Below, piece after piece: positions 3,859 through 64,000 of a stretch of DNA of 64,000 nucleotides. The notes beneath the pieces were generated by a model. That model was given only the letters and a program-made list of their open reading frames with translations. It searched no databases and was not told the DNA's origin. This DNA is from Bacillus multifaciens. Lineage in GTDB: Bacteria; Bacillota; Bacilli; Bacillales; Bacillaceae_G. How positions within the stretch are numbered: the first letter of the stretch is position 1; each line of letters opens with the position of its first letter. Location: the NCBI RefSeq assembly GCF_030756675.1, contig NZ_JAVBXD010000024.1, positions 1 to 64,000 of the forward strand, given 5' to 3'. A program made the position numbers and the translations under genes.

Positions 3859-4323
3859 TTATAGATTTTCTTTCACAAATTGTAACGCTTCTTCAACATG
3901 GCCCTTAACTTTAACTTTCTTCCATTCCTTTACTAACTGTCCTTCTTTATCAACTATAAATGTCGATCTTTCAATGCCCATATACTCTTTTCCAAAGTTT
4001 TTCTTCAGCTTCCAAACACCGTACATTTCTGCAACTGTATGATCTTCATCAGCTAACAGCAAAAATGGCAAGTTATATTTTTCTATAAATTTTTCGTGTC
4101 GCTGTAAAGAGTCCGTACTTATCCCTAAAATTACACAATCTAACTCTCCAAAGGTTACATGATGATCGCGAAAATCGCACGCCTCAGTCGTACATCCTGG
4201 TGTCATATCTTTTGGATAAAAATAAATAACAACGTGTTTCCCACGAAAATCAGATAATTTTACTTGCTCTCCATTGCTTGCTTCTAACGTGAAATCCGGC
4301 GCCATTTGCCCTACTGTAATCAT
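3859..4323 (-). CDS. bcp: Thioredoxin-dependent thiol peroxidase Bcp
   Basis: A 154-residue atypical 2-Cys peroxiredoxin that reduces hydrogen peroxide and organic hydroperoxides using thioredoxin. The active-site segment is PGCTTEAC. The peroxidatic Cys and the resolving Cys five residues later correspond to Cys44 and Cys49 from this start. It is orthologous to B. subtilis YgaF, in the same place between gsaB and perR, although the M60 gene now separates it from perR. The ATG at 4323 is chosen over a TTG two codons upstream because AGAAGGAG is well spaced before it. Confidence 0.95.
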   Translation of the reverse strand: MITVGQMAPDFTLEASNGEQVKLSDFRGKHVVIYFYPKDMTPGCTTEACDFRDHHVTFGELDCVILGISTDSLQRHEKFIEKYNLPFLLLADEDHTVAEMYGVWKLKKNFGKEYMGIERSTFIVDKEGQLVKEWKKVKVKGHVEEALQFVKENL

Positions 4324-4369
4324 ATACAATCACTCCTTCTATTTTACTTTCACTATATCAAATATCCTA

Positions 4370-4774
4370 TTATTTTTCATTTTCCATAACTGTCCGCACA
4401 ACAAATGCAAATGGCATCGTATATCCAATCAGTGCTTCTATAATGGCAATCCAACGACCAATTCCAATCGGCGTTACATCACCGTATCCAACTGATAACA
4501 ATGTAATTGCACTAAAATATAAACATATTTCTACAAGAGCGAATGAATGATTCATTACTACTTTCCCGTCTTCTTCTAATACCGAAAATCCACTTTCCTC
4601 TAAAACAACATAACTAAGCGCAAATGCAATGAGTACCGTTGTATAAATAAGAAATAACGATATCAGATTATACAAAGAGAAAAAACGGTTTGATTCTCCT
4701 ACCGAACTCCATAGTAATTGTATACTCCGCAATACAGCAATCGCAGCAATTAATAAAATAATTACCCACAACAT
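4370..4774 (-). CDS. Two-TM potassium channel family protein
   Basis: A 134-residue ion-channel (PF07885-type) subunit. It has an N-terminal helix, a second helix at about residues 33-58, a pore helix, the selectivity filter SVGYGD (residues 94-99) and a last helix. There is no C-terminal RCK domain, so the protein is a minimal pore. The first filter position is Ser rather than Thr. The ATG at 4774 is preferred over a GTG three codons upstream because GAGGTGGAGG precedes it. It is transcribed in the same direction as bcp, 46 bp upstream of it. Confidence 0.85.
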   Translation of the reverse strand: MLWVIILLIAAIAVLRSIQLLWSSVGESNRFFSLYNLISLFLIYTTVLIAFALSYVVLEESGFSVLEEDGKVVMNHSFALVEICLYFSAITLLSVGYGDVTPIGIGRWIAIIEALIGYTMPFAFVVRTVMENEK

Positions 4775-4836
4775 GTCCTCCACCTCATTTTATTTGTATG
4801 AGGACAAACGGGGTTTTATCCCATATGAATAAGTAA

Positions 4837-51938: not shown

Positions 51939-53384
51939 ATGAACAACAATACGCTAAATGAATCAGTTGAAGAAGTTGATAAAAAACGGGTAAACTCACG
52001 CAAACGCTCTACAAATTGGAAACTTATCACAGCGGGTGGCGGTATAATTGCACTTCTCCTTGGGGGAATGAGTTATTATCAGGCAACTCGTTTCAATTCA
52101 CAGGTTACAATTAATGACACAAAAGTCGGCGGTCTGACTGCTGATCAAGCAATACAGAAATTAAAAACATCTGGATTAGAAAACAAAGTTTATGTTGGCC
52201 AACAACAAATTTTAGATGAAAAAGATACGCAAACGGAACTTACGGAAAAAGATTTTCCTCAAGTTAAGAAACTATTAAAAAGCCAGTGGACATTTTTCCC
52301 TTCCTCAAAGGAAAAAAATTATTCGCTGCTAACGGAAAAGGCAGACCAGTATCGAAGTGAAACAATGAAAAAACTTGTAGAAGAAAAGCTCTTATCTATG
52401 AATAAAGGTTTAAAAGCTCCTCAAGATGCTATGGCAAAGCTCGAACAGGGCAAAGTTATTATCTCAAAAGGCGTTGACGGAAAACAGTATGATGTTGCTA
52501 GTCTATTAAAAGATTACGACAAGCAAAAGCATAAAAGTGAAATCCATTTGAAGCCTGTATACATACAGCCTATTAAAGAAAACGATCCGATTGTAAAAAA
52601 AGAGGAGAAGGCACTACAGGATCTTCTTCAACAGTCTGTTGATTATAAGGTACAAAATGAAGTTTACTCTTTAAAAGCGAAAGATTTAATTCAAAATGCC
52701 TCTATGTCAAAAGATATGAAAGTTACAATCGATGCGAGCGACATTAAGAATAAGGTTGCTAAAATTAATAATGATAAATCAACATTAAATAAAGACTTCA
52801 CATTTAAAACTCATTCTGGTTCGGTCATATCAGTAAAAGGACAAGGCTATGGCTGGGCACTAGATGTTGAAAAAGAAACAAAGCAAATCCAACAAGCCTT
52901 TGAAAAAGGCGAAAAATCTCTTTCTGCTTCTAATATTCGCGGAAATGGCTGGGATAATGAAGGCATCGGTTATGAAACAACAGCGAATAATGGCATTGGA
53001 GACACGTATGCGGAAGTATCAATTGCAGAACAGCAAATTTGGATTTACAAAGATGGACAATTAGCAGTCTCAACGAATGTAGTAACTGGTAAACATAGCA
53101 CGAGTGAAGATACATCACCGGGAGTGTGGTACGTCCTTTATAAACGATCACCGTACACACTCAAAGGCAGCGCAGTAGGTAAACCAGATTATTCCGTTAA
53201 GGTAGATTACTGGGCTCCGTTCACAAACGGCGGACAAGGATTCCACGATGCCGCTTGGCGGACAAACTGGGCAAATAATGCCTATTTAACAGGAGGTTCG
53301 GGCGGATGTGTTAACCTTCCTCCTAGTGTTGCGAAAACTGTTTATGATAATCTCAGTACTCATGAACCAGTTGTCGTGTACTAA
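51939..53384 (+). CDS. L,D-transpeptidase (YkuD domain) with PG-binding domain
   Basis: A 481-residue single-pass membrane protein. A basic cytoplasmic N-terminus is followed by a TM helix (about residues 29-49), two repeats of a PG_binding_4-like domain and a C-terminal YkuD domain. The catalytic Cys is in GGSGGCVNLP, with the preceding His in GFHDAAWR. It makes 3-3 cross-links or attaches proteins in peptidoglycan. CGGAGGAAAGATTT before the ATG at 51939 sets the start; the frame opens 17 codons upstream. Confidence 0.92.
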   Translation: MNNNTLNESVEEVDKKRVNSRKRSTNWKLITAGGGIIALLLGGMSYYQATRFNSQVTINDTKVGGLTADQAIQKLKTSGLENKVYVGQQQILDEKDTQTELTEKDFPQVKKLLKSQWTFFPSSKEKNYSLLTEKADQYRSETMKKLVEEKLLSMNKGLKAPQDAMAKLEQGKVIISKGVDGKQYDVASLLKDYDKQKHKSEIHLKPVYIQPIKENDPIVKKEEKALQDLLQQSVDYKVQNEVYSLKAKDLIQNASMSKDMKVTIDASDIKNKVAKINNDKSTLNKDFTFKTHSGSVISVKGQGYGWALDVEKETKQIQQAFEKGEKSLSASNIRGNGWDNEGIGYETTANNGIGDTYAEVSIAEQQIWIYKDGQLAVSTNVVTGKHSTSEDTSPGVWYVLYKRSPYTLKGSAVGKPDYSVKVDYWAPFTNGGQGFHDAAWRTNWANNAYLTGGSGGCVNLPPSVAKTVYDNLSTHEPVVVY

Positions 53385-53411
53385 CATATCAAGTATTTTC
53401 TTTATAAAAAT

Positions 53412-53455
53412 AAAGAAGCAGGAAATCGCGAGTGATTTTCTGCTTCTTTTTTTAC
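53412..53455 (+). terminator. Terminator of the L,D-transpeptidase gene
   Basis: A 16-bp stem (AAAGAAGCAG and its complement, then GAAATC/GATTTT) is followed by T. It marks the last housekeeping transcript before the AT-rich island. Confidence 0.9.
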
Positions 53456-53646
53456 TTATAGTGCGGTTCACCGTGATATATTTAGCGGTAAATCAAAAGA
53501 ATCAGTTGATTTATAATTCTTTAATTTTGTCATTAACAATCTAAAAATACTACTCTATTTAAAAGTTCACTCTATACTTATTGCGCTTACTTTTATTACA
53601 ATTTTCTCCTTTAACTTTAAGCTTATAGTTTCACAGATTGTAATTA

Positions 53647-54513
53647 TTAAACGTGTTTTGTAATTTTATAAATTAATATTTTCCCTTCCATTTCACTATC
53701 AATACCTTCTGGAATACAAGGGCAAAAATAAATTCTATCTGGCGCCTCAGTAGACATTTTTTTCATTTTTGTATGTAGTTCGCAATTGATATCTATTCCG
53801 TTAACTCGTTTTACTAATTTATGTTTAACCGTTTCTCTACTTCGTTCAGGGCTACAATCCAACGACATTGCATCCCCAATATTTTGGTATCCACTTATAT
53901 GTCCACTAATAATTTCAGGTATTTCATTCTGGATACAATACAAATGATAAATAATTTCGTTCTTCCTTGCATCAAAACCATCATTTAACTCTTCTATTGA
54001 ACTTTCAAGATTTTCATCAAATACTACTTCAGAGAGAATCAGTTTTAATTCTTTTACAAATCCGTCTATATCATGTATTCGCTTAGAAAATAATAAAAGA
54101 ACTTGTTTTAGATGTTCCAATTCAAATATATTTCTTAAATTAACTCCTATATCCAACATATAGCCTATTTCATTAACATCGTGATCAAAATACTGGTCAT
54201 TTCTTAATATTTCTTTAAATGAATCTGATTCTTCTTGTGCTAAATTATTAAGCTTTCTTATACACTGATCATGCTCAGTGGTTTCTACATAACTAAACAT
54301 CTTTTCAAATATTTTATTTATAATCTTTATATCTTCTTTATTTTTTAAAATATGCAATACTTCAAAAATTTCTTCTAAAAGTTGATCAGATAGGATAACT
54401 GTATATGATAATTCTTTTAATAATTGGAGGGTTGAAACAAAATCTTTTAGCTCATTTTCACTACCATTCAATAGTTCTAAAAACTTTTCGTTTTTAAGTA
54501 CCATTTTCCCCAT
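53647..54513 (-). CDS. Third gene of the DUF262/DUF3696 operon, unknown
   Basis: A 288-residue protein that I do not recognise. It is mostly helical and acidic over residues 1-230, ending in a short beta-rich tail with CPCIPEG and ILIYKITKHV. No signal peptide or membrane segment. It overlaps the DUF3696 ATPase stop (TAATG), so it is translationally coupled to it. Strict coupling suggests it works with the ATPase and the DUF262 protein, perhaps as the effector or a regulator. Confidence 0.75.
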   Translation of the reverse strand: MGKMVLKNEKFLELLNGSENELKDFVSTLQLLKELSYTVILSDQLLEEIFEVLHILKNKEDIKIINKIFEKMFSYVETTEHDQCIRKLNNLAQEESDSFKEILRNDQYFDHDVNEIGYMLDIGVNLRNIFELEHLKQVLLLFSKRIHDIDGFVKELKLILSEVVFDENLESSIEELNDGFDARKNEIIYHLYCIQNEIPEIISGHISGYQNIGDAMSLDCSPERSRETVKHKLVKRVNGIDINCELHTKMKKMSTEAPDRIYFCPCIPEGIDSEMEGKILIYKITKHV

Positions 54514-55595
54514 TATTTTTTCAACCTCATTTTTCTAATTTCAAACAAATCATTTTCTTCTTGATCCATAAAACCAGTAGGCCAATGAGTTATTTCTGCT
54601 TTATCATTTAATGCTATCTCTTCAATATGACAAATTTTATCCACATTAAAATAATTTATAACTAAATCCGAAGGCTTTAATGGATTTTTATCATATAAAA
54701 TAGCTTTTCTAAATCCATTTACGATATGTTCACTATGTGTTTCAATGACAACTTGTACTCCAGATGCTGCAATCACTCCTAAAAAAGCAGCAATATTAGA
54801 TTGAGCTTTGGGATGTAAATGTAATTCTGGATTTTCAACAATTAAAATAGAGCCCTCATCTGCTATTAAACCAGCAACAATTATTGGTAGAATAAAAGAA
54901 ATCCCATAACCTACATTAGTTTGGTGTAGTGAATCCTTTTCACCAAATAATAAAGAAAGATGATTATCTGTACCTTTATTTGTTGCAGTCACTCTACTTT
55001 TGGGCAATATATAATTCAGCCAATCATTTATCTGTATATCCAAAATAATGGTGTCTTTATGATCCCAATGATTACGATTCTTATTAATTTTTATAAATTT
55101 ATCGTGGCGTCCTTTCTCAATAATATAACCTAAATATTCATTAGTTTCGCCTAATCGTATACTGTGAACATCGCCACTCTTTTGATATCTAGAAATCGAT
55201 CTATCTGCACTTAAATAAGTTAATGCATTTGTAAATTTATTTATCTCCCCAGTAAAATTCAATTTAACAACATTATTATCGTCAGTCGGTTTATATTCAA
55301 TAGTTGATGTATAATCCCCGTAATTTAATTCCAGACTGAACAGATTATCTCCAGCATCTTCATAAAGAATCTCATCAAAGGAGTATAGGTTTAATCCGTA
55401 ATCATTAGTTATTAAATCTATACTTTTATTTACATCCTGCATATCACATTCTAAAGACATTTTTGAAAGCAATAGCGCTTGAATCAGTGAAGATTTACCT
55501 CCAGAATTAGTTCCTAATAAAAGATTAGCTTTATTCATCTTTACATCATTTTCTTTGAAACATTTAAAGTTCTTAATCTTTATACTTTTTATCAT
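54513..55595 (-). CDS. DUF3696-type AAA ATPase (OLD/SMC-like)
   Basis: A 360-residue ATPase. Walker A is GTNSGGKSS (from about residue 28). The ABC-like Walker B ILIVENPELHLHP is followed by ETHSEHIVNGFRK. This is the AAA_15/AAA_21 plus DUF3696 layout common in defence loci. There is no TOPRIM nuclease domain. The ATG at 55595 follows GGAGGTAGCG; the reading frame opens at a TTG four codons earlier. It overlaps the end of the DUF262 gene by 23 bp. Confidence 0.85.
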   Translation of the reverse strand: MIKSIKIKNFKCFKENDVKMNKANLLLGTNSGGKSSLIQALLLSKMSLECDMQDVNKSIDLITNDYGLNLYSFDEILYEDAGDNLFSLELNYGDYTSTIEYKPTDDNNVVKLNFTGEINKFTNALTYLSADRSISRYQKSGDVHSIRLGETNEYLGYIIEKGRHDKFIKINKNRNHWDHKDTIILDIQINDWLNYILPKSRVTATNKGTDNHLSLLFGEKDSLHQTNVGYGISFILPIIVAGLIADEGSILIVENPELHLHPKAQSNIAAFLGVIAASGVQVVIETHSEHIVNGFRKAILYDKNPLKPSDLVINYFNVDKICHIEEIALNDKAEITHWPTGFMDQEENDLFEIRKMRLKK

Positions 55596-57006
55596 CGCTA
55601 CCTCCAAAAATTCCGACTAAAAATTTTTCGACAAGCATAAATGTTGTATCAATTCTAGATCTATCATTTGTACCATATGTAATTGATTCAAACAGGTACT
55701 CTTCTTTCTGTAGCCATTTTGCAAAATCTTTAATAACATTTCCTTTTTCATTAACAACAATGCTATCATAATTTGAAAGTAATACTGAAAAAGCAGTAAA
55801 TAAAGATTTATTAATCATATTTTTATAATATGTATTATAATCAATTTTCACTTTTCTAAACGCATAATCTTCAAATAAAGTAAACGCATTTTCCATAGCC
55901 AACATAAAATCTGCTTTTATAATATTAAAAGGAACTGCTTTGAATTCATTATTTAAAATTTCAACGACATTATCTAAAAATTCATCCATTATTCCATTAT
56001 AACGAAGTTGTGGAAACCAACTTGGTCGTTTATAAACAAAATAAAAACCAATAAATCTAATAACTAATTCTTGATCCATCATTCTTTTTGGTTTAACACT
56101 ATTATTAGTTGCCAATTTAAACTCATTAGAATTAGCTAAATCCCTAACAAAATCTCTTGATTCTTTTCTTAATATTGAATTTCTAATTTCTTGGTTATTT
56201 AAGCTCCTACCACCTGTGTTTAATCTTTTAAATATATCCGATTTAACCCTATTAGGTGTATCAGGTTCAATAATATTACAATCTATTTGATATGATCTTA
56301 AATGCCTAACAAATTTAGGATGTAATGAAGCATTGTTCTCTTTTTGAAAATATTTTTGGTCGCATTCCTCTTTTAAATATTCTAAATTTCTTAATTTAAA
56401 ACCATTTGAGAAGAATTCATTTATAACCGATAAGCGTTGTACACCATCTACAACTTGATATTTTCCTTCTTTACTTCTAGCTAGATAAAATACTGGTAAA
56501 GGGATTTTTAATAAAATTGATTCAATTAAACGAGATTTCCTCGTATTATCCCATACATAGTTTCTTTGAAAGTCTGGTGATAAATCTAATATTGATTCAT
56601 CATATTCTGTACCATTAATCATTTCAAATATTTCTCTTAAAGAGAAACGCCCCTGTGTTACTCTTATAGAATTTGGATCATACGGCACAGTTATATTAGG
56701 ATCATTTTCCACATCTTCTTGCGTCGATTCAATTCCACTTTCTAGATTTTCAATCATGAGTTTAACTGATTCATTGTACTGATTAATAAAAAGTTGTATT
56801 ATCATTTCTGTATATTCATTAAGATAATCCCTATTATCAATTCTTTTAGCATCATAACAATAAGCTTTATTATCAGTAATTGCCATTAAAGTTAACCCAG
56901 ATTCAGTAAAATATTCACTATCTGAGGACTTTTTTCTAGAAAAATTTAACACTTCAATTTCCCCATCCAATGTAATTTCTATCCTAACATTGTTTATAAA
57001 CCCCAT
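55573..57006 (-). CDS. DUF262 (ParB/GmrS-like) protein
   Basis: A 477-residue protein with a DUF262 domain from about residue 120. DFQRNYVW (145-152), DGVQRLSV (187-194) and DIFKRLNTGG are the conserved motifs. The usual DGQQR reads DGVQR. DUF262 domains bind or hydrolyse nucleotides and occur in GmrSD-type modified-DNA restriction and other anti-phage systems. No HNH (DUF1524) domain is fused, unlike GmrSD. The N-terminal 110 residues are unassigned. GAGGTGCAATTAA precedes the ATG. First gene of the operon. Confidence 0.85.
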   Translation of the reverse strand: MGFINNVRIEITLDGEIEVLNFSRKKSSDSEYFTESGLTLMAITDNKAYCYDAKRIDNRDYLNEYTEMIIQLFINQYNESVKLMIENLESGIESTQEDVENDPNITVPYDPNSIRVTQGRFSLREIFEMINGTEYDESILDLSPDFQRNYVWDNTRKSRLIESILLKIPLPVFYLARSKEGKYQVVDGVQRLSVINEFFSNGFKLRNLEYLKEECDQKYFQKENNASLHPKFVRHLRSYQIDCNIIEPDTPNRVKSDIFKRLNTGGRSLNNQEIRNSILRKESRDFVRDLANSNEFKLATNNSVKPKRMMDQELVIRFIGFYFVYKRPSWFPQLRYNGIMDEFLDNVVEILNNEFKAVPFNIIKADFMLAMENAFTLFEDYAFRKVKIDYNTYYKNMINKSLFTAFSVLLSNYDSIVVNEKGNVIKDFAKWLQKEEYLFESITYGTNDRSRIDTTFMLVEKFLVGIFGGSDDKKYKD

Positions 57007-57238
57007 TTAATTGCACCTCACTTTACCGATTTTAATAATTGAGTTCAATATAAAATTAATTTTTCATTATTAGAATCCTATTATCTTTATTTCCCCATAA
57101 ATTCTAGTGTAATATTTAGATTTTTATCGTACTAAAACAATCTATTTAGAAGACCTTCCCTATTTGTGATAAGCTTCACTGTATAATCTTTAACTGCGAA
57201 CACTCTACCTTAAACAATCACTTTATACATAATAAAGT

Positions 57239-58948
57239 TTACTTCACCTTGAAAAATTTGTTATCCATGCTTAATTCTAATACTTTTGCTTTTTCAATTA
57301 CATTTGCATCTAATTTATCTACTCGTTCTCTTAGAATAGGTATTATATATTGACCATTAATTTCCTGACATAACTCAAATATAGTTTTTAACTGATTAAT
57401 ATGTGTATTCTCTAATTTATCGTGAATTACAAATTGTGGGGCACTAATATCCATTACTTCTGCATACTTCATGTATGCTAAATCAAATGCTACTATGACC
57501 CCTTTTTTCATGCCTGTTCCAACATTCCCCTTAAAAGAATCTAAAGAAACAGGGAATTTTTTTTGCTCTTTCCAATTGTTGTTATAGACAAATAAATATT
57601 TTTCACCATATAGTTTTTCACAATACAAGGAAAAGTATTTATTAAACACTTTTATTTTTTCATTAATAATGTCTGGATTCATTTGTTTATTCACTTCTTT
57701 AATTTGACTAACTAAAGACGTTCTTTCTCTTTCAGCACCTTCTAAGATTTTTAAGGATTGTTCAATTCCACCTATTTCTATATTTAAAAACTCTATCTTA
57801 GTATTCATTACATTCAACTCATCTAATAGACCCTCATCCAATATATCTATAGTTATTTGTTTCTTTTCCTCCAATAAAATATCCCTAATTTTCAAAACTT
57901 CAGCTAAGTCATCCTTTTTAGAATCCAATTGATTTGCTATAAAATCAATCCTATTTTGAATCATTGTATTATGAAAAATTAATACTTCCTCATACGTTTT
58001 TTCTAAATTATCAATATATACTCTTGCCTCATTATAAAGTTGTCTAATTTGTTGGGCATTAACATTACTTTTTTCGTTCTTTAACTTTACAATGCTTTTA
58101 TGTATTGAACTAATATCAAACTCTATGAGTTGAATATATTCTTCTAATTCATTTATTTTAGCTGTTAATTCTCTCTTTTTTTGTAATTCCTCTTTATATG
58201 TCTCCATATAATCTAATTCTCTTCTCTTTATGATTAAAATAGTTAATTCATCTTCTATTAATTCTTTCCTTTGTTTTAAACTATCTAACGAAGATATATT
58301 AACATCTTTCTCATAAAATTTAAGCTTCTTTTCACATTCCTGAAGTTGAGTGGACAAATTATCTTTTTTATTTAATAATTCATCCTTTAGGATATCTAAT
58401 AAAAATAAATAGATCGTATCATACGTAGTATTAAAATTCGAACCAGGTAAATATTTAATCATATTTCCTGAAGTTGTATCATCTACTCTAACAAATTTAG
58501 GAATTAATTGTCTTAATGTTGGATGCTCTTCACATGAATTAAACAATATTTTTTTTAATTCAAACCAAAAATCTTTCTCTACCTCTGGTACACCATTAAT
58601 AAATTTCTTTCCCCTAGTAAATAGTTGCCTAATAATACTTACCTTATTTTCTCTGCTATCTATAAGTATAAGTTCTGCTTCTACTTTATTTTCATTTAAA
58701 AACAACTTAATCTCTGTATTTTCACTCTTAGTATCAGAATCATAATATAATGATTTAACTGATTTACCACCTAAGCATAGATCAATAATTTTTATTGCTG
58801 TAGTTTTCCCTACATTATTCCCACTATCTTCTGCTAAATCACTAGTGTTATCTACAATTAAACTCAATCCTTTTAAATTAAAGTCAATCTCTCGTATAAT
58901 TTCATAATTCGGATGGGTTTTTCTAACAATTAATTTTTTTATTAGCAT
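57239..58948 (-). CDS. ABC-3C system ATPase (DUF2326, SMC-like)
   Basis: A 569-residue SMC/RecN-like ATPase. Walker A GNNVGKTT lies at residues 43-50. Coiled coil extends over about residues 190-430 with a central break. The C-terminal ATPase half has a SFKGNVGTGMKKG signature region and a FVIHDKLENTH Walker-B-like segment. This is the DUF2326 layout seen in ABC three-component conflict systems. Its start overlaps the middle-component gene by 7 bp. It is the last gene of the operon. Confidence 0.88.
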   Translation of the reverse strand: MLIKKLIVRKTHPNYEIIREIDFNLKGLSLIVDNTSDLAEDSGNNVGKTTAIKIIDLCLGGKSVKSLYYDSDTKSENTEIKLFLNENKVEAELILIDSRENKVSIIRQLFTRGKKFINGVPEVEKDFWFELKKILFNSCEEHPTLRQLIPKFVRVDDTTSGNMIKYLPGSNFNTTYDTIYLFLLDILKDELLNKKDNLSTQLQECEKKLKFYEKDVNISSLDSLKQRKELIEDELTILIIKRRELDYMETYKEELQKKRELTAKINELEEYIQLIEFDISSIHKSIVKLKNEKSNVNAQQIRQLYNEARVYIDNLEKTYEEVLIFHNTMIQNRIDFIANQLDSKKDDLAEVLKIRDILLEEKKQITIDILDEGLLDELNVMNTKIEFLNIEIGGIEQSLKILEGAERERTSLVSQIKEVNKQMNPDIINEKIKVFNKYFSLYCEKLYGEKYLFVYNNNWKEQKKFPVSLDSFKGNVGTGMKKGVIVAFDLAYMKYAEVMDISAPQFVIHDKLENTHINQLKTIFELCQEINGQYIIPILRERVDKLDANVIEKAKVLELSMDNKFFKVK

Positions 58949-59175
58949 AATACCACCCTATTTTCATCAATCTCAATTATCGACAACATATATAACCAAT
59001 CTAAGGCATAGTATAAAAAATCTATATGTAAATTTTGATCTATCTCTAAACGTATCTTACTATATAGAACTCCTATATCCATATTTTTACTATCTTTCAA
59101 TTGTTTTATTATAATTGATCCTATATTATATAATGAATATTTAGGTTCCCTATTTAAATTTATAATCATATCCAT
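58942..59175 (-). CDS. ABC-3C middle component (MC6-like)
   Basis: A 77-residue winged-helix-like protein (INLNREPKYSLYNIGSIIIKQL, DFLYYALDWLYMLSIIEI). Size and pattern fit the small middle components of ABC three-component systems, most like those annotated as middle component 6. It probably bridges the ATPase and the CTD protein. It overlaps the preceding stop (TGATG). Confidence 0.75.
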   Translation of the reverse strand: MDMIINLNREPKYSLYNIGSIIIKQLKDSKNMDIGVLYSKIRLEIDQNLHIDFLYYALDWLYMLSIIEIDENRVVLC

Positions 59176-59789
59176 CACCTAGGTTTCTCTAAAATTTTAC
59201 ATTCTACAAAGGCATAACAAATTATTCTAATTAAGCCTATATTTAAATCCTCTATTAAAATATTTGTACTATCATCCGTGATAATTCGTTCCTCTAATTT
59301 CTCTCTTACATATTCTATTACATCATCTGCATGTTTCCTAATGATATCAATTAACTCCATTTCACTATCCCTATAGCGCAATAGTAATTGTCCCCTACAC
59401 TCTTTATATAGAAGGGTAATATCTCTTAAAATCTTGTCTTTAATCCCTATATTATTATTATCTAATATATTGAAAGCCTCTTCACAAATTCTCCCATACT
59501 GAGAGTATTCTTCTACAATGTAACTGTACTTAATCAACCGATTATGTGTGATTTTTTTAGGTATATCATATGAGGTTAAATCTTCCATATTCACTTTATA
59601 CATCTTGTCTATTTCTTCATCAGGTAAATTTGTTAACTCGGCTAATTTTTCTATAATCCTTGGAATTAATGATGGTATTTTTTTTCTCTCTCTTTGAATA
59701 TTGTAAATATTACCATTCACTATATTAGCCATTACACCCCTATTTTCGCCTGAATTGCTTAATGAGACATCACCACTATTTTCTATCAC
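59175..59789 (-). CDS. ABC-3C C-terminal-domain protein with N-terminal Asn/Gly motif
   Basis: A 204-residue protein. Residues 3-28 form an Asn/Gly-rich motif (core SNSGENRGVMANIVNGNI). The remainder is a helical ABC-3C CTD-type domain ending in IRIICYAFVECKI. The same motif occurs at the C-terminus of the upstream membrane protein, with 13 of 26 identical positions and no gaps. It starts at GTG, overlapping that gene by 15 bp. In these systems the CTD protein is thought to be the sensor or effector arm. Confidence 0.75.
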   Translation of the reverse strand: MIENSGDVSLSNSGENRGVMANIVNGNIYNIQRERKKIPSLIPRIIEKLAELTNLPDEEIDKMYKVNMEDLTSYDIPKKITHNRLIKYSYIVEEYSQYGRICEEAFNILDNNNIGIKDKILRDITLLYKECRGQLLLRYRDSEMELIDIIRKHADDVIEYVREKLEERIITDDSTNILIEDLNIGLIRIICYAFVECKILEKPR

Positions 59790-60036
59790 TATTCTTTATT
59801 CCCCCTGTTACGACCCCTGCCATTACACCCTTATTGGTACCTTCATTATCAATCTTTATATCACCTTCATTTTTAACACTCGTATCTTTTATTTTCTGAT
59901 TTCCAGTGTTAGATATACTATGCTCCACCTTATTCAATATCTTTTTCGATTCATTTTTTGCTCTTACTGCAATCACACAAGAAATTACAGTTGCAATCAT
60001 TGAAATAAGACTAATTATCATCATAAGAATATCCAT
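59776..60036 (-). CDS. Small membrane protein sharing the ABC-3C Asn/Gly motif
   Basis: An 86-residue protein. An N-terminal transmembrane helix (about residues 4-24) is followed by a short basic stretch, then an Asn/Gly-rich tail (residues 41-80) whose last 26 residues (core DNEGTNKGVMAGVVTGGI) match the N-terminus of the next protein. AGAGAGGTAATAAAAT precedes the ATG. First gene of the ABC-3C operon. It may tether the complex to the membrane through motif-motif contact, which is inference. Confidence 0.7.
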   Translation of the reverse strand: MDILMMIISLISMIATVISCVIAVRAKNESKKILNKVEHSISNTGNQKIKDTSVKNEGDIKIDNEGTNKGVMAGVVTGGIKNSDRK

Positions 60037-60105
60037 ATTTTATTACCTCTCTCCTTCTAAGTTCTCAACTAATATTAACATTTTTTTACACGGTTCAAGA
60101 TAGCT

Positions 60106-60146
60106 AACTTTAAATTTAATAACTTTACATTAATAAATTTAAAGTT
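60106..60146. promoter_or_regulatory. 13-bp inverted repeat upstream of the ABC-3C operon
   Basis: AACTTTAAATTTA (60106-60118) and TAAATTTAAAGTT (60134-60146) are perfect complements with a 15-nt spacer. They lie just upstream of a TTGAAC/AATATT promoter candidate (about 60070-60100, minus). Either an operator or a hairpin. The remainder of 60037-60467 is AT-rich, with the two hairpins listed at 60354-60412. Confidence 0.5.
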
Positions 60147-60353
60147 ATTAAACGTGTACTCGACCCTATAATAGTAAATAAAAAAGTTATAGTATAAAGA
60201 CTATATCCATTATCCTTCTGCCAATTGGTAGAAAGATTTTTAAATTTATAACGTTCCAATTAATTGATATCGTTACAATAATTAATGGCATTATCAATAC
60301 CATTCCATAAATTAGCTTGTATAAGCCGAATATCCGCCCTTAAAATGTATCTG

Positions 60354-60412
60354 AATAACAATTTTAACTAATAAAAGCAGCCGTTAAAATTGTTATTTCA
60401 ATTCTAACGGCT
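60354..60412 (-). terminator. Two overlapping hairpins after the lipoprotein gene
   Basis: AGCCGTTA (60379-60386) and TAACGGCT (60405-60412) form a terminator. AATAACAATTTTAAC (60354-60368) and GTTAAAATTGTTATT (60383-60397) form a perfect 15-bp alternative. They share bases 60383-60386, so only one can fully form. Confidence 0.7.
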
Positions 60413-60467
60413 TTAATCTAACATTATTTATAATACAACCGATTATATAGTATAAAGATACATCTAA

Positions 60468-61340
60468 CTAATACTGATAACTCCCACCCGCTACTTCCAT
60501 TATTGTAACAGAACCATCAAATCCAACATGATAATTTGCAATATGACTAGTATGTGTTTCCTTAGAATTATCATCAATAGTACCTCCAAACCCCCGTTCT
60601 GTATTCATATGTGACAGAGGTGTAATCAATACCTCCTTTATATCTAGGTCATAACCTTTCTCTGCTAAATATTTTTTTAATGCCTTTTCTACATATGTTA
60701 TCGCTTCATCATCACTTTTTATGTCAACTTTTTTCTTTTCTTCAGCCTTCTTTTTCTCTTCAGCTTGCTTTTTTCCCTCGGCTTCCTTCATTTTTTTCTC
60801 AGCTTCTACTTTCGTAAGTTCTGCATCTACTGTCACCATTAGTTGTGTAGCTTTTTGATTATATTCTTTTAATTTTTCATTTGTCGCTGTTTCTTGCTGA
60901 ACGCTACTTAATAGCTGTTTTGCCTCATTTAAAGATTTATTATTTATTAATTCTTGCGCTTGAGTTAGCCGATTATTGTATTTCTCCAAAGTTTCTTTAC
61001 TAGCCTTTAGTTCATTTTTCATTTTTTTAGCATCTTCTTTAAGGGAGCTTACACCACCTTTAGTTCCCTCTACCTCTCCAAGAAGTTTATTCGCTTCATC
61101 CCATTTTTGTTCATCTTTTGCCTTCATTGCATCTATCATTTTTTTCGTTTGTGTATGTAAAACTTTTGCTTCGTCACTCTTTTCATCTAATGCTAAACTA
61201 AATGAGGCAAGTGCCTTATCGTACTCCTTATTAGCTAGTGCCAATTTCCCTTGTTCTATTGCCTTGTCAGCCGTTTTATCTCCACATCCTGCCAATAAAA
61301 TAAAACATGCACATATAGTCCCTAAAATTCTAAGCTTCAT
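60468..61340 (-). CDS. Lipoprotein with TPR-like and coiled-coil regions
   Basis: A 290-residue lipoprotein. The lipobox is LAGC with the lipidated Cys19. TPR-like helices (residues 25-75) and a long Lys/Glu-rich coiled coil (up to about residue 205) are followed by a globular C-terminal domain containing ITYVEKALKKYLAEKGYDLD and ending GGSYQY. The function is unknown. GGGGAGAGAGATC precedes the ATG. It lies in the island but has no obvious link to the flanking systems. Confidence 0.85.
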   Translation of the reverse strand: MKLRILGTICACFILLAGCGDKTADKAIEQGKLALANKEYDKALASFSLALDEKSDEAKVLHTQTKKMIDAMKAKDEQKWDEANKLLGEVEGTKGGVSSLKEDAKKMKNELKASKETLEKYNNRLTQAQELINNKSLNEAKQLLSSVQQETATNEKLKEYNQKATQLMVTVDAELTKVEAEKKMKEAEGKKQAEEKKKAEEKKKVDIKSDDEAITYVEKALKKYLAEKGYDLDIKEVLITPLSHMNTERGFGGTIDDNSKETHTSHIANYHVGFDGSVTIMEVAGGSYQY

Positions 61341-61493
61341 GATCTCTCTCCCCTATTATTATGAATATATCTTCTAACCCAATAATCATACCATTATTTT
61401 ATAATATTATATAAATTTTACAATTTATCATTACGCACTTTAAAGCATATATTTGTAATTTCTCCAAACCTTTTACTGATTAAGGTTCCCTCT

Positions 61494-62009
61494 TCAAATA
61501 TATCCTTTCTCCTTCAAAGACACATACCTATCAATCCCTACGATTAAATGATCTAAAACAGCTATTCCTACAACCTCACCCGCTTTAACTAATCGCTTAG
61601 TGACCTCAATATCCTCTCTACTAGGTGTAGGATCAGAGCTTGGATGATTATGAGCAACAATAATAGAAGCTGAATTAGATAAAATTGCAGGTTTCATCAC
61701 CTCTCTAGGATGAACGATACTTGCATTTAAACTTCCTACATGACAAATATTAATTGCTGTTGGTTGATTTTTTGTATCTAGACAGGCAACTAAAAAGTAT
61801 TCCCTATCACTATCCACTAAAAATTTTTTTACTAAGTTAAATGCATCTTCAGATGATCGAACACGTCTTTCAGGATATAAGAAACTATTTTCCCTTACCA
61901 TTTTTAGAGAAATAATATTCACTCTTTTTGCAACTACTGCCTTTGTTGTTATTTCCCCTTCTTTAATCAATTCCATTTGTTCTTCTTTTTTAGCTTTGTA
62001 CTTATTCAT
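61494..62009 (-). CDS. RadC-family JAB/MPN domain protein
   Basis: A 171-residue protein consisting mainly of the RadC JAB metalloprotease-like domain. The JAMM motif is His120-x-His122-x7-Ser130-x2-Asp133 (HNHPSSDPTPSRED). The N-terminal HhH of chromosomal RadC is absent. Short RadC proteins of this form are typical of mobile elements; the biochemical function is not settled. GGAGGGATTAGC precedes the ATG. Confidence 0.9.
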   Translation of the reverse strand: MNKYKAKKEEQMELIKEGEITTKAVVAKRVNIISLKMVRENSFLYPERRVRSSEDAFNLVKKFLVDSDREYFLVACLDTKNQPTAINICHVGSLNASIVHPREVMKPAILSNSASIIVAHNHPSSDPTPSREDIEVTKRLVKAGEVVGIAVLDHLIVGIDRYVSLKEKGYI

Positions 62010-62073
62010 GCTAATCCCTCCATATTTTCATTAATTGTATTTATAATCAGTTATAGATATAAAGAAAATTGAA

Positions 62074-62106
62074 AAGAGGATGATTCACTCGTGGAATCAT
62101 CCTCTT
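62074..62106 (-). terminator. Terminator of the LRAT-domain gene
   Basis: A 13-bp perfect stem AAGAGGATGATTC/GAATCATCCTCTT with a 7-nt loop is followed by T-rich sequence on the minus strand. Confidence 0.88.
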
Positions 62107-62168
62107 CATGTTATGTAAAAAGGAAATTTACAAAAAGGCTCCTTTTTTACAACTATAATTACTTTTTC

Positions 62169-62729
62169 CTACAGTTTAAATAACCTATCTATCCGATTAC
62201 CAAATTTGATTAAAGGATTAAAAACTGCATCTATCGCTGTTTCTACTACATCCTTCTTCTCTTCTTCCACCTTATCTTCCAATCCTAATTTTTTATCAAG
62301 CGCTTTTCCTGCAAGAATTATAGGATCAAAAACTGCATCTATTGCCTTTTCTACTATATCTCTTTTATCATCTTCTGGATTCACATTGAAAGTCTGCTTA
62401 GACTGTCTAATTCCTGTCACACACCAACATACAAAGTGTTCACAATTATTTTCTAACAAATTGTATCCTCCAAATCTGCTACCTACTTGGCTAGATGCTC
62501 TTCTAATAATCTCTTCTGCATCATATTTTGCATTATATACCTTTTCTATATACGCTGTTCCACCTTTTTCAAACTCTTTTAAAGTAGTAAATTTGATTCT
62601 AGCATTTCTAATACTATCTCCTGTAAAATGATATACCCATCCATCACCATCATATATACCATAATGCTCTGGAAGTAAGTTTGTTCCCCTTAAAATTGAA
62701 ACTCTAATAACCGCTCCCTTATTCGCCAA
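62169..62729 (-). CDS. LRAT-domain protein with duplicated C-terminal helices
   Basis: A 186-residue protein. The LRAT (lecithin:retinol acyltransferase / NlpC-P60-like) domain covers residues 8-108. His22 is in EHYGIY, His34 in VYHFTG, and the catalytic Cys96 in the NCEHF motif. Such domains act as acyltransferases or phospholipases on lipids. After it, a 16-residue segment is duplicated (123-138 and 159-174, 11 identities, core AIDAVF-x-P) as amphipathic helices that may bind membrane. AGGAGGAGCGAA precedes the ATG. Confidence 0.85.
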   Translation of the reverse strand: MANKGAVIRVSILRGTNLLPEHYGIYDGDGWVYHFTGDSIRNARIKFTTLKEFEKGGTAYIEKVYNAKYDAEEIIRRASSQVGSRFGGYNLLENNCEHFVCWCVTGIRQSKQTFNVNPEDDKRDIVEKAIDAVFDPIILAGKALDKKLGLEDKVEEEKKDVVETAIDAVFNPLIKFGNRIDRLFKL

Positions 62730-62767
62730 TATTCGCTCCTCCTTATCACTTATAATTGAAAAACAAC

Positions 62768-64000
62768 TTAAATTATTATCGTAAAACCAAAAGAAGATGG
62801 AACCTGTTGCGAGGTTCCACCTTCTTCTACACCCAAAATATATTTCTCAATTTGTTCATTAATATGTATAACTATAGAATCTAATTCTCTGTTATTATTA
62901 ATATTTATTTTAGTTATTATTAACTGTAGTATTAACTTTCGTTTTGCTGGTTCTATTGTCTCTATTAAATGATGAAAACTAGTCAACAGCTTTTTTACTG
63001 TATCCACTTGGATAGGGTTTGATGTATTTTGCTGTAATTCTTTTTCAATATGAACTTTCTGGGCCAAATTCATTTCTATTTCATTTGAAATATGTTCAAG
63101 TCTGCTAGTTAATACCTCTTTTGCAATTATTCCTTCCTCATATAAATCAAAAACCCTATTTTTCTTTTTCTCAAGACTTTGTATATTTTTGTTAGTTATA
63201 TTTAATTCTTCTTCTAATGGTTTAATCTTATTGTGTGTATTATCATTTAATTTGCTTACAGTATCTTTTAGGATTTTATCGTTTAACACTATTTGATTTA
63301 TTCTTTTAAAAACAAGTTTCTCAATTTTATCTGCTCTAACTCCATTCGAACGACATACTGCTGTTCCTTTATTTCTCCAAGCTCCACATTGATAATATCT
63401 AATAATATTTACGTTCCCATCCTTTAATTTTCTTTTTACTCTACCAGCTACCATAGGAGCTCCACACATAGGACATTTAATTAAACCTGTCAAAGGAAAG
63501 ATACCATCGAATAGCCTTTTAGGTTTTTGAGATTTTTTCTTATATAGCTCCTGTACCCTATTCCATAAATCTAATGAAATTATAGGATCATGATTTCCAT
63601 TAGTATAAATAGGATTTTTATTTATTCCTCTACGTCTTTTCTCACTCCAATTTTCCCTCACATTATATCTTATTTTTCCTATATAAATAGGATTTAACAA
63701 AATAGTACGGATAGCAATAGGTGTGAAAAAGTTTCCTTTCTTAGTCCTATACCCCAACTTATTCACTAAGTTTGTAATAGCTTTTAGTCCACGTCCTTCT
63801 GCATATAAATTAAATATTTCTTTTACAATAAATGCTTCCTTTTCTTCTATTTCTAATTTCGTTTTACTTTCAGTCTTATCTATTTTTACAGTATTATATC
63901 CTAATACAATGCCCCCATTCCACTTTCCTTCTCTAGCTCTCTGCTTCATCCCCATTTTTACATTTTCCACAATACTTTCCCGTTCAAATTCTCCTATAGA
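62768..64000 (-). CDS. Large serine recombinase, partial (N-terminus beyond window)
   Basis: At least 410 residues. The reading frame stays open to the window end, where IGEFERESIVENVKMGM is the end of a resolvase catalytic domain, so the catalytic Ser lies outside. Visible are the recombinase domain (GYNTVKID to about residue 130), a zinc ribbon (CPMCGAP ... YQCGAW ... CRSNG) and a long coiled coil (about residues 235-320). It is a site-specific integrase of a phage or integrative element, and probably mobilises the island. Confidence 0.92.
   Translation of the reverse strand, partial: SIGEFERESIVENVKMGMKQRAREGKWNGGIVLGYNTVKIDKTESKTKLEIEEKEAFIVKEIFNLYAEGRGLKAITNLVNKLGYRTKKGNFFTPIAIRTILLNPIYIGKIRYNVRENWSEKRRRGINKNPIYTNGNHDPIISLDLWNRVQELYKKKSQKPKRLFDGIFPLTGLIKCPMCGAPMVAGRVKRKLKDGNVNIIRYYQCGAWRNKGTAVCRSNGVRADKIEKLVFKRINQIVLNDKILKDTVSKLNDNTHNKIKPLEEELNITNKNIQSLEKKKNRVFDLYEEGIIAKEVLTSRLEHISNEIEMNLAQKVHIEKELQQNTSNPIQVDTVKKLLTSFHHLIETIEPAKRKLILQLIITKININNNRELDSIVIHINEQIEKYILGVEEGGTSQQVPSSFGFTIII

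Follow-up and report, generated by a model that had tools for sequence, protein, structure and literature searches.

Matched, co-diverging motifs pair a small predicted membrane protein with the CTD protein of DUF2326-type ABC-3C operons

Introduction

What does a small membrane protein do at the head of an ABC three-component (ABC-3C) operon, and why does the end of that protein resemble the beginning of the next one? The question is raised by four genes in the window, which here denotes the whole 64,000-nucleotide stretch of Bacillus multifaciens DNA that was analysed. ABC-3C is placed in the Lamassu superfamily in an excerpt of PMC10586767, where the effector domain of LmuA is described as usually lying at the N-terminus. 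The ABC-3C accounts in the available parts of PMC10586767 and PMC12409362 locate effectors within LmuA or DdmA, and those parts mention no TM protein encoded separately. The layout of BASS, as given in an excerpt of PMC7889193, comprises motifs at the C-terminus of the effector and the N-terminus of the receptor, a small effector with a membrane helix, and adjacent or overlapping genes; published bacterial amyloid-signalling pairs share this layout, according to part of PMC12261475. An earlier interpretation of the window, referred to below as the sequence-only reading, proposed that the operon contains a BASS- or RHIM-like pair.

Operon organization

The features of the locus are collected in Table 1. 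The sequence-only reading described four overlapping, co-oriented genes at 57239-60036, and this description holds: all four open reading frames are present on the minus strand, and each overlaps the next (TM/CTD by 14 nt, CTD/MC6 by 4 nt and MC6/DUF2326 by 7 nt). MC6 and DUF2326 are both above the Pfam cut-off, and the ATPase matches the PADLOC profiles PDC-M68B (2.3e-34) and LmuB (2.1e-8). With an SMC-like ATPase and a dedicated middle component, the operon is, by its predicted protein content, an ABC-3C system. The CTD protein of the window reaches no Pfam family (CTD10, E 0.76), and CTD10 is matched by 12 of the 24 short CTD proteins aligned. Neither the CTD nor the TM protein has any PADLOC match, no effector domain is recognized by Pfam or PADLOC in the CTD protein, and the TM protein has no confident family match in either collection. 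Sequence searches of solved structures returned no match for the ATPase and MC6 profiles and only matches of E > 0.3 for the CTD profile and the window ATPase.

A hairpin (60412-60379) parts the operon from the gene upstream and probably represents the end of that preceding gene, and the inverted repeat is a possible candidate operator. Rfam finds nothing at gathering thresholds over positions 52000-64000 of the window. The minus-strand genes at 53647-57006 encode a GmrSD_N-type protein resembling PADLOC NsnA (1.2e-108), an AAA ATPase resembling NsnB (9.3e-93) and a third ORF of 288 aa, a set that is probably a second defence system adjoining the ABC-3C operon. A RadC-like gene, a gene for an LRAT-domain protein and a serine recombinase gene (Pfam Recombinase) adjoin the operon at 61494-63970, and these neighbours suggest a mobile defence island around it.

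Table 1. Features of the operon and its upstream region, in window coordinates
Feature	Positions	Strand	Description
TM gene, small membrane protein, 86 aa	59776..60036	-	ORF; predicted N-terminal TM helix and disordered tail
CTD gene, CTD protein, 204 aa	59175..59789	-	Motif and helical core (putative docking); GTG start
Middle component gene, Pfam MC6, 78 aa	58942..59178	-	E 3.6e-18
ATPase gene, DUF2326 SMC-like ABC ATPase, 569 aa	57239..58948	-	Pfam DUF2326 7.6e-15
Predicted TM segment, TM protein residues 6-24	59965..60021	-	Kyte-Doolittle 2.64; net charge -1 before, +3 after
Effector-side motif copy, TM protein residues 55-80	59797..59874	-	Alignment to CTD N-terminus
Receptor-side motif copy, CTD protein residues 3-28	59706..59783	-	Predicted disordered
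Terminator-like hairpin	60379..60412	-	14 pairs then T-rich tail; upstream of operon
Inverted repeat, perfect 13-bp, 12-bp spacer	60115..60152	.	About 80 nt upstream of TM gene; read directly from sequence

AlphaFold2 predicts a helix at residues 2-45 of the TM protein, followed by a tail with pLDDT of about 50, and residues 1-30 of the CTD protein are predicted to be disordered (mean pLDDT 40-49). Among the 34 TM/CTD pairs analysed below, charge is higher after the TM helix than before it in 31, with two ties and one opposite case. Because charge rises across the helix in most pairs, the TM tail is probably cytoplasmic, and the charge pattern favours this location for the tail of the window protein as well.

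The sequence-only reading had also aligned the two motif copies of the window without gaps. Counted by eye, this 26-residue match is real, with 13 of 26 identities, whereas its limits need adjustment, as the best local alignment extends one residue further at its start and six further at its end. The BLOSUM62 score of the best local alignment is 90 (z 12.5), which none of 1000 tail shuffles equals.

Motif pairing within operons

For each of the 34 pairs, the TM tail, taken as everything after the most hydrophobic segment, was compared with residues 1-60 of the CTD protein. The score of the own pair exceeds 1000 shuffles at p ≤ 0.01 in 30 of 34 pairs; the four weak pairs are L017 (p 0.236), L069 (0.039), L005 (0.037), for which a frame without a standard start codon was read, and L098 (0.034). 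The 15 pairs in the cluster of the window are not independent, and pairs were compared as representatives of CTD cores clustered by identity. At 40% identity the own partner scores highest for 13 of 14 representatives, and the score sum of 788 compares with a permuted mean of 399 (sd 41), none of 20,000 permutations being as high. Clustering at 50% gives the own partner as the top score in 19 of 21, again with 0 of 20,000 permutations as high; at 35%, with four clusters only, the observed sum is reached by 847 of 20,000 permutations. When only ordinary start codons are used throughout (33 pairs), the own partner is top in 12 of 14 clusters. In same-operon controls the mean score of the own tail is 20.3 versus CTD residues 61-120 and 21.2 versus MC6 (12 of 14 representatives), compared with 55.3 versus the CTD N-terminus.

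The letters of the motif vary between systems (GVMAG, IQIG, IQVVG, QQVG, GTGYQTG, GHQAENMTIN and others) and agree within the operon. The tail is nearer to its own CTD partner than to the tail of any other cluster in 8 of 14 clusters, and is not in the other six. Two pairs found later through a TM-protein search, and standing outside the tests, match too (L183 and L185, p 0.001 each). A generic low-complexity segment, named in the sequence-only reading as something that would refute it, is contradicted by these comparisons, as the other partners are equally rich in Asn and Gly and yet give a tail much lower scores than its own partner does. The TM and CTD proteins are thus paired, at the level of their predicted sequences, by matched motifs that diverge together.

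Inspection by eye also reveals a loose common ending, D/N-M/I-T/N-I/V-N, in the tails of L057, L126, L153, L031, L024 and L050, with tail-tail scores of up to 66; these distant tails perhaps belong to one widespread motif family.

Codon agreement in the motifs

Of 33 pairs, 28 reach a score of at least 40, and these contain 313 identical residues, of which 156 have the same codon, and 155.0 are expected from the codon usage of the same genes. Since the amino acids agree but their codons coincide no more often than chance predicts, the match is evidently kept by selection on the protein and not by recent local duplication, which is ruled out as a general cause. Single pairs depart from expectation in either direction: the same codon is used at 9 of 10 residues in L024 (6.1 expected), 10 of 15 in L003 (6.4) and 2 of 11 in L126 (5.2), and the raised agreement in L024 and L003 may reflect young duplication in those pairs.

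Distribution of the TM gene among relatives

A DUF2326 search with an alignment of five ATPases provided 95 loci, namely the best 80 of 296 confirmed loci from species genomes and 15 from viral contigs; this set leans towards the kin of the window and its proportions are not population frequencies. One contig is counted twice (L043 and L096, both HNH), and five loci are left out of the classes: L041 and L055 (contig end), L048 (CTD fragment), L082 (no CTD protein found) and L090 (cut). In this set of the best 80 of 296 plus 15 viral loci, the CTD protein is short and without nuclease in 27 of 95, and a small TM ORF lies directly upstream in all 27. The CTD protein contains HNH or SMEK in 63 of the 95, including L072 with its broken HNH gene, and no small TM ORF occurs within 20 nt in any of these 63, 12 of which have no upstream ORF at all in the walk. 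In the short proteins a short motif precedes the C-terminal core that is common to the long ones, and in the long proteins an HNH or SMEK nuclease is N-terminal to the same core. These classes are assigned by patterns of sequence letters, with Pfam profiles run on L018, L093 and L099 only: CTD10 is matched in all three, SMEK_N in L093 (3.7e-40), and HNH in L018 and L099 below cut-off. The HNH relative L018 also resembles PADLOC PDC-M68A (1.9e-34) and SAVED-HNH endonucleases, which are CBASS effectors.

In the sampled DUF2326 loci the TM gene and a fused nuclease are mutually exclusive. ABC-3C operons without a TM gene, which the sequence-only reading had regarded as potential counter-evidence, do exist, but in this family they are the 63 that have a nuclease in their own CTD protein; because the operons lacking the TM gene carry their own nuclease, the interpretation as a BASS/RHIM-like pair is strengthened. 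By record titles, the TM class is present in Bacillota, Bacteroidota, Balneolota, Myxococcota and Pseudomonadota, as well as in Actinomycetota (Collinsella), and the TM and CTD genes abut or overlap in 25 of 30 pairs. The presence of the TM gene requires three changes on a quick tree, but a single TM clade is compatible with the data (p-AU 0.637); repeated independent gains were consequently dropped, and the swap of effectors may have been one event. In L002 the true start of the CTD gene probably lies upstream of the annotated one (4336-4788), and an in-frame extension (4183-4788) contains the motif.

A sample based on MC6, drawn from 398, 395, 246, 246 and 299 genomes together with eight seed genomes or records, contains 80 loci, and the upstream gene could be assigned in 71. 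The TM class accounts for 12 of these. Apart from the eight seeds it comprises L126, L127 (the contig of L073), L152 and L153, or 4 of 63; the other 59 were judged in bulk, and many have CTD proteins unlike those of the DUF2326 set. On the basis of these 4 of 63 non-seed loci, TM pairing characterizes a minority of MC6 systems. L153, extended as L182 (2180-4951), has a TM/CTD pair and MC6 together with a CTD protein and an ATPase that are divergent by eye, which suggests that the pair occurs beyond one ABC-3C subfamily. A repeat phylum search over almost the same genomes as one of these MC6 searches yielded no new locus.

At E 1e-5, neither plasmids nor phages contained relatives of the window CTD protein, and plasmid searches with the nucleotide sequence of 52000-64000 and with the window TM protein were likewise without matches, as was a search of viral contigs with the window ATPase as single query. 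Seven plasmid records are matched by the ATPase. Plasmid loci L002, L003 (Lacticaseibacillus paracasei) and L005 are of the TM class and L004 is of the SMEK type; L186 (Caballeronia) is SMEK-like and broken by insertions, and L187 (Acinetobacter) is a fragment without an annotated CTD protein. These six were classified, and the seventh is a second Caballeronia record. Searches with two further TM proteins recovered one previously found locus and two weak matches, and two further scans of viral contigs added a single contig, L190, whose letters place it in the SMEK type.

Resemblance to amyloid-signalling motifs

The two motif copies of the window have no Pfam match, and most motifs matched none of the amyloid families tested. 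L086 has an IQIG/LQIG core, and its CTD-side motif scores 20.7 bits against fungal Ses_B, below the cut-off of 23.2, while its tail reaches only E 8.9. Q-centred cores are present on both sides in L086, L087, L003 and L005. The tail of L086 aligns with the Frankia BASS3 peptide (score 37, p 0.003 uncorrected, the best of 68 segments), a peptide that has been shown experimentally to aggregate and to form amyloid, as an excerpt of PMC8086366 reports. Taken as a set, the 68 segments score higher against this peptide than any of 300 shuffled sets; against a second, archaeal BASS3-like peptide there is no signal, 93 of 300 shuffled sets being as good. From the analogy with BASS and from these few motifs we infer that the motifs may assemble literally as amyloid. 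As far as sequence can test it, the proposal of a BASS/RHIM-like pair within an ABC-3C operon is supported by the matched motifs and their co-divergence.

Proposed mechanism and alternatives

The explanation that we favour, with a probability of roughly 0.6, is that the TM protein acts in trans as the membrane effector of an ABC-3C system of the Lamassu superfamily and is engaged by the CTD motif through heterotypic pairing. The TM protein is proposed as effector, with the motif replacing a covalent fusion, because sister systems have a nuclease where the TM class has the motif. According to this model, the DUF2326 SMC-like ATPase and MC6 would sense foreign DNA or phage activity, and their complex would hold the CTD protein via its helical core. 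Activation would expose or cluster the N-terminal motifs of the CTD protein, and these would seed an assembly, ordered and probably cross-beta, that takes in the matching TM protein tails in the cytoplasm; the TM helices gathered in this way would disturb the membrane, so that the infected cell is stopped or killed. Direct binding, polymerisation, membrane damage, the trigger and a role in phage defence are elements of this scheme that we infer.

A single-helix TM protein might only anchor. It could permanently tether the ABC-3C complex to the membrane through simple beta-pairing, with no polymer and no membrane damage, and another activity would kill the cell. The TM protein has a single TM helix, no enzymatic domain is recognised in it, and motif pairing of this kind accounts for the data without amyloid. 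However, the operon would then be without a recognised effector, as the CTD protein does not have the nuclease of its relatives, and an anchor would be expected with the nuclease types too, where the small upstream TM ORF is absent from all 63 loci; we regard this explanation as unlikely, though it is the foremost of the alternatives. Less probable again is a neutralising pair, in which binding of the TM tail to the CTD motif would hold the system inactive until infection releases it, following guard or antitoxin logic. An upstream overlapping gene is found in many toxin-antitoxin operons, and the arrangement of the TM gene and the matched motifs are compatible with such a function, but Pfam and PADLOC recognise no other toxin in the operon, and like motifs on both sides would suit co-assembly better than they suit an inhibitor and its target.

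Coincidence, low complexity or recent local DNA duplication is very improbable. Asn, Gly and Ser or Thr abound in both segments, and a few single pairs show high codon agreement; nevertheless, the match within pairs is far above that across pairs and in shuffles, and codon agreement over the 28 pairs is no better than codon usage predicts. As a general cause, this group of explanations is refuted by the pairing and codon tests.

Relation to known systems

The operon resembles Lamassu (LmuABC, DdmABC) in having an SMC-like sensor, a small middle component and an effector protein presumed to dock by its C-terminal part, so far as the available accounts describe it. It differs in that LmuA has an N-terminal effector domain and the window CTD protein has none; the match to LmuB is weak, and the defence role is putative here. 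ABC-3C systems with MC6, DUF2326 and CTD10, including PDC-M68, have the same middle component, the same ATPase and a homologous C-terminal CTD core. Nuclease-type relatives such as L018, which matches PDC-M68A, have an N-terminal HNH or SMEK domain, whose place is taken in the window by a roughly 30-residue motif together with a TM protein encoded separately. The operon is not filed as PDC-M68, because PDC-M68B is the only component matched and PADLOC matches neither the CTD nor the TM protein. A YydD-YydB model from Bacillus subtilis, built from cross-linking MS and deep learning, provides a further match, between the CTD core and the C-terminal portion of YydB; the matched chain, taken as YydB, has 481 residues with about 330 ahead of the matched part, unlike the short TM-paired type. 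The Yyd proteins are unnamed in the main text of PMC10090944.

In the parts of the literature available, BASS and BELL-NLR pairs share with the operon the placement of the motif pair, adjacent or overlapping genes, a small effector with a membrane helix, and many motif families, of which BASS has ten. The receptor there is an NLR, whereas here it would be the CTD protein side of an SMC-like ABC-3C complex. Since a CTD protein from a DUF2326 ABC-3C operon, and not an NLR, stands in the putative receptor position, the operon is not filed as BASS. In the window TM protein a membrane helix is predicted at the N-terminus, which does not imply membership of BELL. Lamassu and amyloid were not found together in the literature searched, a scope outside which lie the founding ABC-3C and BASS papers, most subscription papers and preprints. 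The operon combines two known kinds, ABC-3C and amyloid-type motif pairing, and prior mention of the combination elsewhere is possible.

The broader proposal, to which we would give about even odds, is that templated amyloid is the signalling mode of an entire branch of SMC-like ABC-3C immunity, with system-specific motif pairs seeding a membrane-permeabilising single-helix protein after DNA or phage sensing. If true, amyloid signalling is not tied to NLRs, and effector slots can be filled in trans via a short matching tag. SMC-like DNA sensing and amyloid-motif signalling, which are separate forms of bacterial immunity, would be joined, and a class of membrane effectors would be revealed that is easily missed, its genes being tiny, mostly unnamed and fitting no profile. 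The divergence from system to system represents over a dozen natural motif pairs for the study of insulation and cross-seeding.
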